Below, piece after piece: positions 4,206 through 44,991 of a stretch of DNA of 51,901 nucleotides. Below the pieces are notes generated by a model. It had not been told where the DNA came from. It ran no database searches and saw only the letters and a program-made list of their open reading frames with translations. Positions within the stretch are counted from its first letter, which is position 1. The number at the start of each line of letters is the position of its first letter. Position numbers and translations under genes: made by a program. Source of the stretch: a virus; IMG/VR virus record IMGVR_UViG_3300046467_000510, positions 1 to 51,901 of that record. One strand, written 5' to 3'.

Positions 4206-4856
4206 GTGTCTAGAAAGAATGTAGTCGCTGTCATTCAGGCTCGTCTTGGGAGTAAACGCTTTCCCGGGAAGGCGTTGGAGAAGCTTAGAGGCAAGCCGTT
4301 AGTGTTGCATGTATGTGACCGCGTTAAGCGTGTCGAGCGCGTCGACCGAGTGGTCGCGGCTGTTCCATACGGCGACCACGAACTGATTGACGTCTTACGT
4401 AAAGGCGGGATGGAGCATATCGTTCTTGGGCCGGAGAACGACGTATTGATACGGATGTGGATGGCGGCCGCAGTTAACCGAGCCGACGTTGTTATGCGTG
4501 TTACTGGCGACTGTCCGTTATGGTCGCCTGTTGCTGGCGCGTTAGTTCTTAAGTCGTTTCTGTACGACAAACAACGACGACAGTACTGGTCAAACGATAC
4601 GCGGATATCTGGTTGGCCCGATGGGACTGACACGGAGGTATTCAGTTTCAATTTACTAAAACAAACTCGGTATGCCAGATCGACTCAACAATCCGACGAC
4701 CACGAACACGTAACGACGTGGATGCAACGCTTGGAACACGGACGCTGTGGCGTTGTGACTCGCCCGTGGGATGAGGTAAGTAAAATGAAACTCTCTGTTG
4801 ACGAACCTCAAGACCTAACGCGTGTTATTGAATTTGGAGACGAGGTGATCGAGTAA
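4206..4856 (+). CDS. SpsF/NeuA-like cytidylyltransferase
   Basis: A nucleotidyltransferase of 216 aa. The N-terminal 'VAVIQARLGSKRFPGKAL' is the nucleotide-binding signature of CMP-sugar synthetases (A-R-x-G-S-K-R-x-P-G-K). Later come 'VVMRVTGDCPLW', with the metal-binding Asp, and 'KLSVDEPQDL', a standard SpsF/NeuA ending. The expected reaction joins CMP to the NeuB product, activating it for transfer. It starts with GTG two bases after the FemAB-like stop, and its TAA overlaps the next ATG. No glycosyltransferase is visible in the window, so transfer may depend on the host or on genes outside. Confidence 0.85.
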   Translation: MSRKNVVAVIQARLGSKRFPGKALEKLRGKPLVLHVCDRVKRVERVDRVVAAVPYGDHELIDVLRKGGMEHIVLGPENDVLIRMWMAAAVNRADVVMRVTGDCPLWSPVAGALVLKSFLYDKQRRQYWSNDTRISGWPDGTDTEVFSFNLLKQTRYARSTQQSDDHEHVTTWMQRLEHGRCGVVTRPWDEVSKMKLSVDEPQDLTRVIEFGDEVIE

Positions 4857-6103
4857 TGCCGTGGGAAGACCATTTTACTAAACACCTGATCGCCGAAAGC
4901 CATAACGTGCCAACGTTTTTAGATAAAGCGAAAGCATTAACACCCGGAGGGTCTCAAACAAGTAGTCGACGCCACGGGAAGGTTGGCACTATTGACTATC
5001 CGGCCTTCGCAGTCGAAGCCGCAGGCGCGTATATTTACTTCTCAAAAACAGATCGAGCTATCGACCTTGCTGGAGCTAACGCGACATGTCCGTTAGGCGC
5101 AAACCATCCTCGCGTTCTTGAGGCTGTCCTTAGTCAACTCGGTAAAGGCGGGACGATGAGTTTGCCGGCCGAGCTTGAGGTTTCTGTATCGGAGCAAATG
5201 CTTAACGTTGTTCCGTTTAACGACAGAATGGTCAGGTGGGTGCGTACTGGAAGCGAAGGGATGAGCGCGGCGGTCGCGATTGCGTTACAAGCGACAGGTC
5301 GGGCGCGTGTTGGTGTTCGTGTTGGTAGTTATCACGGTTGGCATACGTGGACGCGTGACATCTGCACGCCTATGTCAGAGTCGGCATTACCAGAAAGACG
5401 TTTATTAGAAACCTTGGCGGCCTACTGTATCGAGTCGCCGCGATGGACCGAAGTTGATGCCAAGTACAAACGATGGGTGGCATCAATTAGAAAGTTATGC
5501 GACGAGACAGGCACGTTGTTAATTTTTGACGACGTTGTTCACGCGTTCCGTTTTGAGTCGGGAGGACTCCAGCAAAGCTCGGGCGTTCCTGCGGACCTCG
5601 CGGTCTTTTCTAAGGCGTTAGGAAATGGGATTCCGGTGGCGTGTGTGGTGGGTAAGAAAGACCTCATGCAACAAACCGAATACCGAGTCAGTAGTACGTT
5701 TGGTGGAGAGACACTTGGCCTCGCAGCGGCGGGTGCTGTCTTACAACTACACCAGACGCAAGATGTGTGTGGTCAATTGCGACAGGTCGGCGTCGACTTA
5801 CGAGAACGCCTTCTCGACGCTATCGACGGAACGGGTATTAGACTTGTCGGCTGTCCTCAGCACTTCCGTTTCGAAGCCGACACCGATACACCAGACACGC
5901 CTCTTGACGATAGATTTTTAACGGCTTGTATTTACGATAGCCAGCACCCTGTCTTAGTTCACCGTGATGCCAATAACGTAAACCTTGCGATGGACGAATA
6001 CGTTAGAGAGAACATCGCCGCCACTATTAAACGTGCTGCACATAACTTAGAGAGCGAAGTGTTTCGCTCTCACGAGAGAGGTTCAGATTATGAAGGTGGT
6101 TAG
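4856..6103 (+). CDS. Class III (glutamate-1-semialdehyde aminomutase-like) aminotransferase
   Basis: A full-length 415 aa PLP enzyme. 'TPGGSQTSSRR' at the N-terminus, 'RTGSEGMSAAVAIALQATGR', 'SYHGWHTW', 'LLIFDDVVHAFR' with the PLP-contacting Asp, and 'FSKALGNGIP' with the Schiff-base Lys are all in family order. The final 'NVNLAMDEYVRENI' fits too. GSA-like aminotransferases recur in NeuB/SpsF surface-sugar clusters, so it more likely aminates a sugar or sugar acid than makes tetrapyrroles. ATG overlaps the preceding stop by one base, and the nitrilase gene starts within its last 14 bases. Confidence 0.85.
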   Translation: MPWEDHFTKHLIAESHNVPTFLDKAKALTPGGSQTSSRRHGKVGTIDYPAFAVEAAGAYIYFSKTDRAIDLAGANATCPLGANHPRVLEAVLSQLGKGGTMSLPAELEVSVSEQMLNVVPFNDRMVRWVRTGSEGMSAAVAIALQATGRARVGVRVGSYHGWHTWTRDICTPMSESALPERRLLETLAAYCIESPRWTEVDAKYKRWVASIRKLCDETGTLLIFDDVVHAFRFESGGLQQSSGVPADLAVFSKALGNGIPVACVVGKKDLMQQTEYRVSSTFGGETLGLAAAGAVLQLHQTQDVCGQLRQVGVDLRERLLDAIDGTGIRLVGCPQHFRFEADTDTPDTPLDDRFLTACIYDSQHPVLVHRDANNVNLAMDEYVRENIAATIKRAAHNLESEVFRSHERGSDYEGG

Positions 6104-40787: not shown

Positions 40788-42374
40788 ATGTTAGAAAAAC
40801 TTATCGACAGCGTGATGAAAGCTCGGATGGTAGGAACGCCTCTTATCGCTATTGAAACTCCTGATCAGGGCGCGACCAGCAAGGCGTTATTCAAAGCCGT
40901 GGCTGACAGAGCCGAGGCGAAAGAAGCACCTGTCCCATTTATGTTTTGTTGGGATTCCGCACAAGGCATTCGTCCGATCAACGAACAGTCAAAGTCGGCG
41001 CTTGCCGAAATGCTTGAACCGGTTGGTGGAGACATCGAGATGACCATCAATCCTGCCCTCGCGATTAACGTCTTACGTACTGCGCCAGCAACTACGTTCG
41101 TTGTCGCCTCAAACCTGAATCGCTTTTGGGAAGACAACCGACTTGACCCACAAGTGGTTCAAGCGATTTGGAATCTTCGTGACCAGTTCAAAACATCCGG
41201 TCGAACGTTTGTGATGACTATGCCGGACTGTTCGCTCCCGTCAGAGCTTCGACACGACGTGGTGGTCTTTACTGAAGACCTTCCGACAGCCGAGGAGATT
41301 GCCCCGGTTGTTCGTAAGCTTCATAAGAGCGCTTCGTTATCCGACCCGTCGGATGAGACTGTTGAGAAGGCGACACACCTCTTGTCTGGCTTGGCGCTTC
41401 AGCAAGCCGAGCAAGCTTGCGCGATGTCCTTAAGTAAGGATGCTGACGGTGGCTTGGACATGGACATGCTTCGTACACAACAGCGGCAGCAAATCGAACA
41501 GACTCCCGGCCTTGAGATTTGGGATGGCGATACAACGTTTGACGACATCAAGGGATTAGATGCGTTAACTGGTTACTTGAGAAAAGTAATTGGCGCGAAA
41601 ACGAAAACGCGAGCGTTCGTCTTTATTGATGAAATCGAAAAGATGATAGCTGGCGCGACTGGTCAAGGCGATTCGTCTGGCACATCGCAGGAACAACTGG
41701 CTTACTTTTTAAACCATATGCAGAAGACGAATGCGAGAGGCATTCTTTTGGTTGGTCCTGCTGGAACTGGTAAGTCTGAAATCGGAAAGGCTGCTGGGAA
41801 CGAAGCTGACTGCTGGACGGTTAGTTGTGATGTTGGCGCGATGAAAGGGTCGTTAGTTGGCGAGACAGGGAACATGACCCGACGAGCGTTGCGTGTTGTT
41901 GAATCTCTCGCGCAGGGTGAAGCGTTTTGGATTGCAACGTGTAACTCGATCGACAGCCTCCCACCTGAACTGCGTCGCCGTTTTTCATACGGAACGTGGT
42001 TTGTTGATCTACCGAGCGACGCAGGTCGTAAGGCTATTTGGAAGCACTACTGCAAGAAGTTCAATTTGAAAGCTTCAGGTGCATCCAAGTTTAATCACGA
42101 AGGTTGGACAGGCGCGGAGATTAAAACATGCGCGAGCATGGCGAACGATATGGACATCGACTTGAAAGAGGCGTCGAAGTTCATCAGTCCTGTCTCACGT
42201 TCCAGCGCGGAAACAATCCGCAGACTTCAGACGCTTGCTACCGGCCGTTTCATGTCGGCTGAAAAAGGTGGCTTCTATAAAGCGCCAGAAGCGAAGTCGA
42301 TTGTTGACGCGTCAGATGTGACTCCTGTCATGTCGCTCAACGCTGAACGCATTATGGAAATGGACGAGTCGTAG
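40788..42374 (+). CDS. Ycf46-like AAA+ ATPase with permuted motif order
   Basis: 528 aa from ATG 40788, set by the AGTGAGGTCACC cassette; the longer frame from 40716 has no such signal. The N-terminal half resembles Ycf46 ('TTFVVASNLNRFWEDNRLD', 'VVVFTEDLPTAEEIAPVV'). In the ATPase half, the Walker B-like 'FVFIDEIEK' (277-285) and its following helix come before the Walker A 'GPAGTGKS' (323-330). Sensor 1 'WIATCNS' (381-387) and arginine finger 'PELRRRF' then follow. Normal Ycf46 has Walker A first. This is either a circular permutation or a segment transposition. It is followed by the Ycf35-like gene. Confidence 0.75.
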   Translation: MLEKLIDSVMKARMVGTPLIAIETPDQGATSKALFKAVADRAEAKEAPVPFMFCWDSAQGIRPINEQSKSALAEMLEPVGGDIEMTINPALAINVLRTAPATTFVVASNLNRFWEDNRLDPQVVQAIWNLRDQFKTSGRTFVMTMPDCSLPSELRHDVVVFTEDLPTAEEIAPVVRKLHKSASLSDPSDETVEKATHLLSGLALQQAEQACAMSLSKDADGGLDMDMLRTQQRQQIEQTPGLEIWDGDTTFDDIKGLDALTGYLRKVIGAKTKTRAFVFIDEIEKMIAGATGQGDSSGTSQEQLAYFLNHMQKTNARGILLVGPAGTGKSEIGKAAGNEADCWTVSCDVGAMKGSLVGETGNMTRRALRVVESLAQGEAFWIATCNSIDSLPPELRRRFSYGTWFVDLPSDAGRKAIWKHYCKKFNLKASGASKFNHEGWTGAEIKTCASMANDMDIDLKEASKFISPVSRSSAETIRRLQTLATGRFMSAEKGGFYKAPEAKSIVDASDVTPVMSLNAERIMEMDES

Positions 42375-42664: not shown

Positions 42665-43114
42665 ATGAGTCATGTTGCTAGTGTTGAGGTCGTTGTTAAT
42701 GACCTCGCGTGTCTGAAGAAGGCGTGTGAGATGTTGGGCGTTACGTTAATCGAAGGACAGAAGACGTTCAAATGGTATGGACAGTTTCTTGCCGACTCAG
42801 ACGTCGGTCGCGCCACAGCGAAAGAGTTTAACGCGAAGGACTTTGGTAAATGCGAACACGCCATCAAGGTCCCCGGATGCAGTTACGAGGTTGGCGTTGT
42901 GAAGAACCCAACTGGTAAAGGGTATCGGTTAATTTACGATCAGTGGGGCGACGGCGGTAAGGGTATCGCCAAAAAACTTGGTGGAGAGAAGTTGACGAAG
43001 CTCACGACCGAGTACGGTGCCGAGGTTGCTACGAAACAGTTACGGCGAAAGGGATACACGATTGGTCGCCGCTACCTTAACAACGGTCAGATTAAATTGA
43101 CCGCCACGAAGTAG
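42665..43114 (+). CDS. DUF1257 (Ycf35-like) protein
   Basis: 149 aa. 'MSHVASVEVVVNDLACLKKA' is the characteristic start of DUF1257/Ycf35 proteins (MSHF-type), followed by a basic second half with 'LTTEYGAEVATKQLRRKGY'. The function is unknown. In cyanobacteria, plastids and phages the gene occurs near the AAA+ Ycf46 and DUF2997, as here, which suggests the three products work together. Confidence 0.8.
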   Translation: MSHVASVEVVVNDLACLKKACEMLGVTLIEGQKTFKWYGQFLADSDVGRATAKEFNAKDFGKCEHAIKVPGCSYEVGVVKNPTGKGYRLIYDQWGDGGKGIAKKLGGEKLTKLTTEYGAEVATKQLRRKGYTIGRRYLNNGQIKLTATK

Positions 43115-43125
43115 GAGATACGAAC

Positions 43126-43305
43126 ATGAAGACGATTGAGGTTGTTATAGATGAAAGCGGTGTAGTCGTTTCCACTTCTGGATTTGCTGGTGGCGAATGT
43201 AAAAAAGAGACAGCGGATTTGGAACGCGCCTTGGGCAAGACCACGAACGATACGAAGACAGCGGAGTTCCACAAGCCAGTTCTCAACAAACTGAAAGCGA
43301 GGTAG
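43126..43305 (+). CDS. DUF2997-like small protein
   Basis: 59 aa. 'KTIEVVIDESGVVVSTSGFA' followed by 'GGECKKETADLERALG' matches DUF2997: two β-strands, a G-F-x-G-x-x-C turn with one conserved Cys, and a helix ending in ALG. AGGAGA precedes the ATG. Third member of the AAA+/DUF1257 cassette. Confidence 0.78.
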   Translation: MKTIEVVIDESGVVVSTSGFAGGECKKETADLERALGKTTNDTKTAEFHKPVLNKLKAR

Positions 43306-43310
43306 TCGAA

Positions 43311-43559
43311 ATGGAAATCACCATACTAGGGAGCCAAATGGCTTTTATCTACACGGATGATTTGGTCGACTTGTTAGATGAAGGCGTTGCAACTATAAAG
43401 CGTGTCAGTCATGTCGAGCCTTCGCCCATTCTGGGCGGCGGTATCGGCTGGACGGCTGATATGTCTCCTGTCGACGGACCAGTACTTGGGCCGTTCGTAA
43501 CTCGACAAGAAGCTTTGGACACCGAGGTTGCGTGGCTGAAGAGAGAGCGAGGTCTTTAA
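43311..43559 (+). CDS. Small conserved-looking phage protein
   Basis: 82 aa. 'GGGIGWTADMSPVDGPVLGP' then 'FVTRQEALDTEVAWLKRERG' matches a common small-protein pattern in which a β-hairpin (W-x-A-D-x-x-P-x-x-G) precedes an 'F-x-T-R-x-E-A-L' helix. The role is unknown. Its stop overlaps the next start (TAATG). Confidence 0.65.
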   Translation: MEITILGSQMAFIYTDDLVDLLDEGVATIKRVSHVEPSPILGGGIGWTADMSPVDGPVLGPFVTRQEALDTEVAWLKRERGL

Positions 43560-44059
43560 TGTCTCCTAAACCTTCAGGCACGGGCGAGGTGGTTGGTCAG
43601 TTTAATAGTTCCAAGTCTCCTGACATTATTTGGACTGTTAAAGAGGACAGGTCGAAGCCAGTAAGCGACAACAAACGCATCTGGTGTAACTGCCCATCGT
43701 GGCGGTTCTCCCATAAACGTTTGGGTCGTTACGAATGCAAACACACAAAGCACATTGTCGAACGTCGACAGGAGCAAGGTGAGACAGTTGCGCTCGCTCA
43801 GGAACGTGTCGAGCGTGAACAATTCCATAACTCTGAACTGGGAAAGTCGTTAGTCGGTAATAAGAAACGACAACTCAATTCAGCAAAACGGAAGTTCGCT
43901 GTCGCGGTTCAACGTTCTGGCGTGAGGTTAACAGACGCAGCTTTCAAGGCGCTGCTGTATGAGCTTCGTCCGTATCTAAAGAACGCTTCTGAGGCGCGAC
44001 TAAGCACCAAAGCACCCGTTATAGACGACGACGTGCTTCGCGTTATTACTTTGGACTAA
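43559..44059 (+). CDS. SWIM-type zinc-finger protein
   Basis: 166 aa from ATG 43559, which overlaps the previous TAA. 'RIWCNCPSWRF', then 'YECKHTKHIV', gives the C-x-C-x(n)-C-x-H layout of SWIM zinc fingers, which bind DNA or protein. The C-terminal half is basic and helical. Found with recombination and replication genes, so DNA binding is likely. The longer frame from 43532 would overlap the gene before. Confidence 0.72.
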   Translation: MSPKPSGTGEVVGQFNSSKSPDIIWTVKEDRSKPVSDNKRIWCNCPSWRFSHKRLGRYECKHTKHIVERRQEQGETVALAQERVEREQFHNSELGKSLVGNKKRQLNSAKRKFAVAVQRSGVRLTDAAFKALLYELRPYLKNASEARLSTKAPVIDDDVLRVITLD

Positions 44060-44069
44060 CCCGTTAACA

Positions 44070-44093
44070 GATGGCCGGAAATGTCCGGCCATC
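44070..44093 (+). terminator. Gene-end hairpin, no U-tract
   Basis: GATGGCCGGA pairs perfectly with TCCGGCCATC (10 bp), loop AATG. Confidence 0.5.
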
Positions 44094-44095
44094 AT

Positions 44096-44106
44096 TTGAG
44101 GTCACC
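44096..44106 (+). promoter_or_regulatory. GAGGTCACC start cassette 2
   Basis: TTGAGGTCACC abuts ATG 44107, so 44107 is the start and not the upstream in-frame codon at 44071. Confidence 0.7.
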
Positions 44107-44991
44107 ATGACAATTGATAAAGGTTCAATCACATCGTTAGCAGATCGAGCAATTTACTTAGTGTTGGACTTCAGCCACCTTGGTGTCTGGAGAGGTGTTG
44201 AGACACAAGACACCAACAACGACGTTCGCGCGTCGAAACGCATCATCAAGTCCAAGGCAGTTGACGACATGCGGAAGTTAAATTACCGCGTTCGCGCCAT
44301 GCTGAATAAGTACTCGCTAAACTCCCTGTTCCGTCCCGGTGTCTATGTCATTCCGATGGATTACGTTGAGGCGGTTGATGTGAATTTACAGAGCGCGTTG
44401 AACGAATTAAAAACCGTTCGCGAGCAGTTGGTAACGGAGTGGTCGGATGTGATTGACGATGCGAAGGAACGCCTTGGCGAAATGTTTAATCCAAACGACT
44501 ACCCCTCTCCTGAGTCGGCAGCGCAGGAGTTCGATATGACTTATCGATACGTGCCAATCGCACAAACCCCGACGGTGTTACAGAACCTTGCGGCTGACAT
44601 TTATAAGGCCGACCTTGAACGGACAAAAGTTGAAACAGAAAAAGAACTTGAGGCGTTTAGGGCGCACCTTCGTGTCACGCTGTTAGAGATTGTCGATAAC
44701 ATGCGGAAGACGTTGACGAAGCCGGACGATTCAAAACGTGTCTTCGGCCAGCGCTTCTTTAAACGGTTGGACGAGTTTCTTGAAACGTTCGACGTTAAAA
44801 ATCTGTCCGACGATAACGACTTAAAAGACATTGTGGACAGTCTTAAGAAGGTTGCGACTGGCGCGGATGTTAAACAGCTAAAAGAGTCGAGCGACGTTCA
44901 AGCCGCACTCGATACTAAGTTGAAAGACATTACCCATTCAATGTGTTCGATGTTGATCGAAGACGACACACGTGTAATAGACCTCGACTAG
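44107..44991 (+). CDS. Helical protein, possibly DUF3150-like
   Basis: 294 aa from the cassette-marked ATG. 'KSKAVDDMRKLNYRVRAMLN' and 'LFRPGVYVIPMDYVE' resemble phage DUF3150 proteins, which often neighbour AAA+ ATPases; this match is from memory and moderate. The rest is long charged helix with coiled-coil character ('KADLERTKVETEKELEAFRA'). It could be a partner of the AAA+ protein. Confidence 0.6.
   Translation: MTIDKGSITSLADRAIYLVLDFSHLGVWRGVETQDTNNDVRASKRIIKSKAVDDMRKLNYRVRAMLNKYSLNSLFRPGVYVIPMDYVEAVDVNLQSALNELKTVREQLVTEWSDVIDDAKERLGEMFNPNDYPSPESAAQEFDMTYRYVPIAQTPTVLQNLAADIYKADLERTKVETEKELEAFRAHLRVTLLEIVDNMRKTLTKPDDSKRVFGQRFFKRLDEFLETFDVKNLSDDNDLKDIVDSLKKVATGADVKQLKESSDVQAALDTKLKDITHSMCSMLIEDDTRVIDLD

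Follow-up and report, generated by a model that had tools for sequence, protein, structure and literature searches.

An AAA+ ATPase in which two adjacent blocks of the catalytic domain have traded places is encoded in the viral record IMGVR_UViG_3300046467_000510 (IMG/VR). The window, meaning the whole 51,901-nucleotide stretch that was analysed, contains terminase, portal, capsid, endolysin and DnaB genes, with the ATPase gene located between the last two. The protein is very probably a Ycf46-like AAA+ ATPase whose C-terminal module was rewired once, with both the fold and the catalytic site kept. Its features are as follows.

40788..42374, + strand: open reading frame of the block-swapped AAA+ ATPase, 528 aa
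40788..41492, + strand: N-terminal domain, AAA-like and Walker-A-less, aa 1-235 (AlphaFold2 model, superposition, sequence)
41493..41597, + strand: N-linker and alpha0 of the C-terminal AAA+ module, aa 236-270, FDDIKGL...
41598..41723, + strand: moved block beta3-alpha3, aa 271-312, which carries the Walker B motif FVFIDEIEK (breakpoint scan, element order)
41616..41642, + strand: Walker B, FVFIDEIEK, aa 277-285 (conservation, 133 permuted homologues)
41724..41915, + strand: block beta1-alpha1-beta2-alpha2, aa 313-376, with Walker A and the pore-loop-like KGSLVGET (AlphaFold2 element order, breakpoint scan)
41754..41777, + strand: Walker A, GPAGTGKS, aa 323-330 (conservation, 133 permuted homologues)
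41934..41945, + strand: sensor 1, ATCN, aa 383-386 (conservation, 133 permuted homologues)
41976..41981, + strand: candidate arginine finger, R397-R398 (conservation, 133 permuted homologues)

AAA proteins (Pfam PF00004) have the motif order Walker A, Walker B, sensor 1. The ATPase departs from this order. Walker B comes first (...RAFVFIDEIEKM..., where FVFIDEIEK is 277-285), Walker A lies C-terminal to it (...GILLVGPAGTGKS..., where GPAGTGKS is 323-330), and these are followed by FWIATCN with the sensor 1 residue N386 and by PPELRRRF with R396-398. The 528-aa translation thus confirms the order given in the preliminary description. A second hhhhD[DE] motif C-terminal to Walker A is absent from the ATPase and from 133/133 distinct permuted homologues. 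The N-terminal domain of the ATPase has no Walker A.

The preliminary description called for homologues with the same order, and 190 permuted loci were recovered. Searches of viral contigs, bacterial genomes and phage records gave 291 loci, which were finally classed with profiles of the individual blocks as 190 permuted, 88 canonical and 13 incomplete or unclassed. The permuted loci encode 133 distinct proteins. Apart from one regular-expression misreading, Walker B precedes Walker A by 42-50 residues in permuted proteins, and the motifs are 56-57 residues apart in the reverse order in canonical ones. The permuted order was found in many independent metagenomes, in bacterial genomes and in one isolated phage, Tunturi_3 of Tunturiibacter (PP885686; PMC11924767), whose complete genome encodes the permuted form as gp103 (XOB77284.1). 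The word ATPase is absent from the main text of the Tunturi_3 paper (PMC11924767). The alternative that assembly errors, frameshifts or faulty gene calls produced the order is refuted and has a negligible probability, as the 190 loci from these independent sources agree and the genes are single open frames with conserved motifs. Clearly, the block order is a real, inherited rewiring and not a sequencing or assembly error, because more than 100 related phage and mobile-element proteins share it.

In silico exchange of residues 271-312 with residues 313-376 was used solely to align the out-of-order sequences. The native ATPase matched Pfam AAA with 50.1 bits in three pieces, above the curated cut-off of 21.2, and the de-permuted protein matched it in a single stretch with 65.4 bits over profile positions 1-124 of 131. 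Against PHROG 8638 the native protein scored 127 bits in four pieces, and the de-permuted one scored 154 bits in a single stretch covering positions 21-557 of 568. The best PDB sequence match improved from 5.5e-9 to 1.3e-18. When 15,000 breakpoint triples were scored against a model built from canonical relatives, the optimum was 276/314/376 with 227.6 bits; with the same model the best domain of the native ATPase scored 93.6 bits and random exchanges averaged 76.8. The maximum among random exchanges, 213.0 bits, may reflect near-optimal breakpoints or chance. The canonical order outscored the native one in 133/133 distinct permuted proteins, the median best-domain score rising from 89.2 to 210.7 bits. 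These profile matches, together with the predicted element order, support the earlier proposal that a beta3-alpha3 unit moved ahead of beta1. The same proposal had described the domain as circularly permuted. The shuffled order stands, but because the domain begins and ends where it did before, the rearrangement is strictly an exchange of two adjacent blocks within the domain and not a circular permutation of the whole.

AlphaFold2 was run on the single chain with 97 family sequences and predicted a confident fold (pLDDT 92.9, pTM 0.87), with most of the core above 90. With strand names assigned by homology, the predicted elements run b3-a3-b1-a1-b2-a2-b4-b5: beta3 276-280, alpha3 299-313, beta1 317-322, alpha1 329-340, beta2 343-347, alpha2 357-375, beta4 379-385 and beta5 403-405. 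The canonical relative from Rhodopirellula solitaria (L119; pLDDT 82.2) was predicted as b1-a1-b2-a2-b3-a3-b4-b5. The strands would still build the usual AAA+ sheet, in which the Walker B strand would sit between beta4 and beta2, beside the Walker A lysine.

The best structural neighbours of the model are the classic AAA proteins p97/Cdc48 and Vps4. The ATPase superposed on p97 D2 6g2v over 200 residues at 2.6 A (L119, 234 at 2.2 A), on 6g2w over 197 at 2.4 A (L119, 233 at 2.4 A), on 3cf0_A over 203 at 2.6 A (L119, 249 at 2.8 A) and on Vps4 6bmf_B over 211 at 2.9 A (L119, 257 at 3.1 A). It thus mostly aligned about 35-45 residues fewer than L119 at similar rmsd, roughly one beta-alpha unit, in a comparison between two different proteins of which L119 is the less well modelled. 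A deficit of this size would fit a fold in which an alignment bound to chain order skips the displaced unit and the remainder still superposes. Full-length superposition aligned the N-terminal domain with the first AAA domain of p97/Cdc48, and p97 shares the tandem arrangement of the ATPase. The classic proteins differ in having the canonical block order, and both AAA domains of p97 have Walker A, whereas the N-terminal domain of the ATPase does not.

Very short linkers join the exchanged blocks, in most cases with 1-3 residues from one matched segment to the next. In the permuted alignment the pairs R275-Q376 and A276-A375 ranked 8 and 9 of 32,131 by covariation, and both were among the top eight pairs in a separate run. 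These residues are about 100 positions apart in the permuted chain and flank the joint between alpha2 and beta3, where they are neighbours in the canonical order. Maps of the coupling from block to block were uncorrelated between the permuted and the canonical set (rho 0.02), a comparison without signal because the canonical set is too small and shallow (effective 35 sequences). The moved block directly follows the N-linker and could therefore reach elsewhere, with beta3-alpha3 swapped into a neighbouring subunit or paired with the N-terminal domain instead of occupying its own usual place. Covariation and a single-chain model do not separate cis from trans with certainty. Nevertheless, the high pLDDT of the core in a single chain, the very short linkers and the fit of the covarying pairs to cis geometry make such a placement very unlikely.

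Eight residues, E282, K285, G323, G326, K329, G358, N386 and R398, are invariant in 133/133 permuted proteins, while D281 is kept in 128/133 and R397 in 120/133. The ATPase thus retains the Walker A lysine, the Walker B Asp-Glu and the sensor 1 asparagine conserved in AAA (Pfam PF00004). The second P-loop glycine (328) is alanine in 64/133 and serine in 11/133 permuted proteins but glycine in 76/76 canonical ones. With Ala or Ser at this position, over half of the permuted family could have altered ATP handling. The loss of this glycine is what speaks for a permuted domain that is folded as described but serves as a catalytically weak or dead ATP-binding scaffold. This reading is disfavoured and seems unlikely, because a dead enzyme would not need the Walker A lysine, Walker B glutamate, sensor 1 asparagine and one arginine that are invariant throughout the family. 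From sequence conservation, the protein is predicted to be an active ATPase whose P-loop is somewhat changed.

The closest canonical proteins are Ycf46-like ATPases of planctomycetes and phages (L115-L123, L213-L261; PHROG 8638), both domains of which are homologous to those of the permuted protein after block exchange. The N-terminal Walker-A-less domain can be aligned across the two sets. Catalytic residues and gene cassette are the same in both; the canonical group differs in its Walker A-Walker B-sensor 1 order, in its invariant P-loop glycine and in having R-x-G/E-R where the permuted clade has RRRF. This is the order that the preliminary description ascribed to Ycf46-like proteins; the nearest canonical proteins are this planctomycete and phage group of Ycf46-like ATPases, not necessarily Ycf46 itself. 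In a tree of de-permuted sequences the permuted proteins formed a single long-stemmed clade (SH-aLRT 100), adjoining the canonical planctomycete/phage group with a support of 98 for the joint group. A cyanobacterial relative (L129) fell outside the nearest canonical group. A quick tree of the N-terminal domain, a region untouched by the swap, also grouped the permuted proteins with support of 100. Since both trees give one clade, a single origin of the permuted form is likely.

In a sample of 297 genomes from the phylum to which one acidobacterial host belongs, 3 carried the permuted gene. One acidobacterial genome (G004, contig C67) has two permuted copies about 127 kb apart. Searches for terminase and portal genes placed none on the contig of any bacterial copy. 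Two bacterial copies that were examined (L294 and L295) lie beside genes for type IV secretion coupling proteins. One of them is also accompanied by Rad52, a TOTE-type primase and a Pif1-like helicase, and the other by an integrase next to adenylosuccinate synthetase and by a DNA clamp gene. These neighbours suggest that the two copies reside in integrative conjugative-type elements.

Interrupted frames were seen at some other loci. At the canonical loci L243, L251, L252, L254, L257, L258 and L287, and also L272, the frame ends exactly after the Walker B aspartate (CVLFVD or VVLFID). Because this occurs in two different canonical subfamilies, it suggests that an intron or intein is inserted at the conserved aspartate codon. 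At L280-L283 the ATPase frame is interrupted next to Walker A instead.

Downstream of the ATPase gene is a cassette of recurring partners.

42665..43114, + strand: DUF1257 (Ycf35-like) partner, 149 aa (weak PF06868 match, E=0.002; 93/102 neighbourhoods)
43126..43305, + strand: DUF2997 partner, 59 aa (PF11211, E=1.4e-10; 57/102 neighbourhoods)
43311..43559, + strand: 82-aa partner (39/102 neighbourhoods)
44071..44991, + strand: 306-aa partner, probably helical (94/102 neighbourhoods)

Ycf46 and Ycf35 are plastid and cyanobacterial proteins. A DUF1257 (Ycf35) neighbour, a trait of Ycf46-like ATPases, is common in the family, the window's own Pfam match being the weak one listed. The canonical Rhodopirellula ATPase is flanked by the same DUF1257, DUF2997, 82-aa and 306-aa partners, and the window's 82-aa protein is 46% identical to its counterpart there. 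Because the same partners flank both ATPases, the permuted enzyme most likely shares the function of its canonical counterpart, which judging from these gene neighbourhoods would be that of a substrate-remodelling ring ATPase working with the cassette proteins. NCBIfam names no cassette member apart from generic AAA matches, and the few papers found on DUF1257, Ycf46 and slr0374 did not appear specific to the cassette. A further cassette gene of 175 aa (window 43532-44059) has a SWIM-like CNCPSW...ECKH pattern and no Pfam match, with relatives in 10 neighbourhoods. A radical SAM/Fer4_12 activating-enzyme-like gene adjoins the cassette at about 16 permuted loci (for example L043:4316-4927). Elsewhere in the window, an aminotransferase-like protein (PHROG 2736) is encoded at 4856-6103, upstream of the packaging genes.

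Natural precedents for a permuted P-loop fold are the GTPases YjeQ/YqeH and cpRAS, the latter with the order G3-G4-G5-G1-G2, in which the Walker-B-like G3 also precedes the P-loop (PMC2430557). The permuted GTPases differ in that they are not AAA+ proteins and their rearrangement displaces more of the domain and alters its termini, whereas in the phage ATPase one beta-alpha unit is relocated inside the domain. No GTPase homology was found for the ATPase, whose Pfam, NCBIfam and PDB sequence matches are AAA/AAA+ ATPases. The literature searched contained no earlier description of a natural permuted AAA+ core; coverage was incomplete, and priority is not proven. By the searches made, this is probably the first natural case of a rewired AAA+ topology, one that arose once, retained both the fold and the catalytic site, and came to be distributed among phages and conjugative-type elements.

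The findings are best explained by a Ycf46-like AAA+ ATPase of two domains, of which the catalytic C-terminal module would have been rewired once in an ancestor, when [beta1-alpha1-beta2-alpha2] and [beta3-alpha3] traded places while alpha0, beta4, beta5 and the lid stayed where they were. A likely origin is that the beta1-alpha3 stretch was duplicated in tandem, after which the leading beta1-alpha2 and the trailing beta3-alpha3 were lost. Intermediate forms with a duplicated block were absent among the proteins of the 291 loci. The protein presumably assembles as a ring, in which ATP would be bound and hydrolysed through K329, D281/E282, N386 and an arginine (R397 or R398) of the neighbouring subunit. 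The ring may remodel a protein substrate together with the DUF1257, DUF2997 and 306-aa partners; a role of the cassette in phage infection or mobile-element maintenance is guesswork.

AAA+ proteins are recognised by a fixed order of motifs, and standard profiles score the permuted family only in fragments. Searches that rely on motif order will miss such enzymes. Because the isolated phage Tunturi 3 carries the permuted ATPase, it is directly testable. Permuted and canonical ATPases in the same cassette form a matched pair for testing on which links in the chain ATP-driven motion depends. That the motifs of one of the most common motor folds of biology have been reordered naturally and heritably shows that the fold does not require their order.
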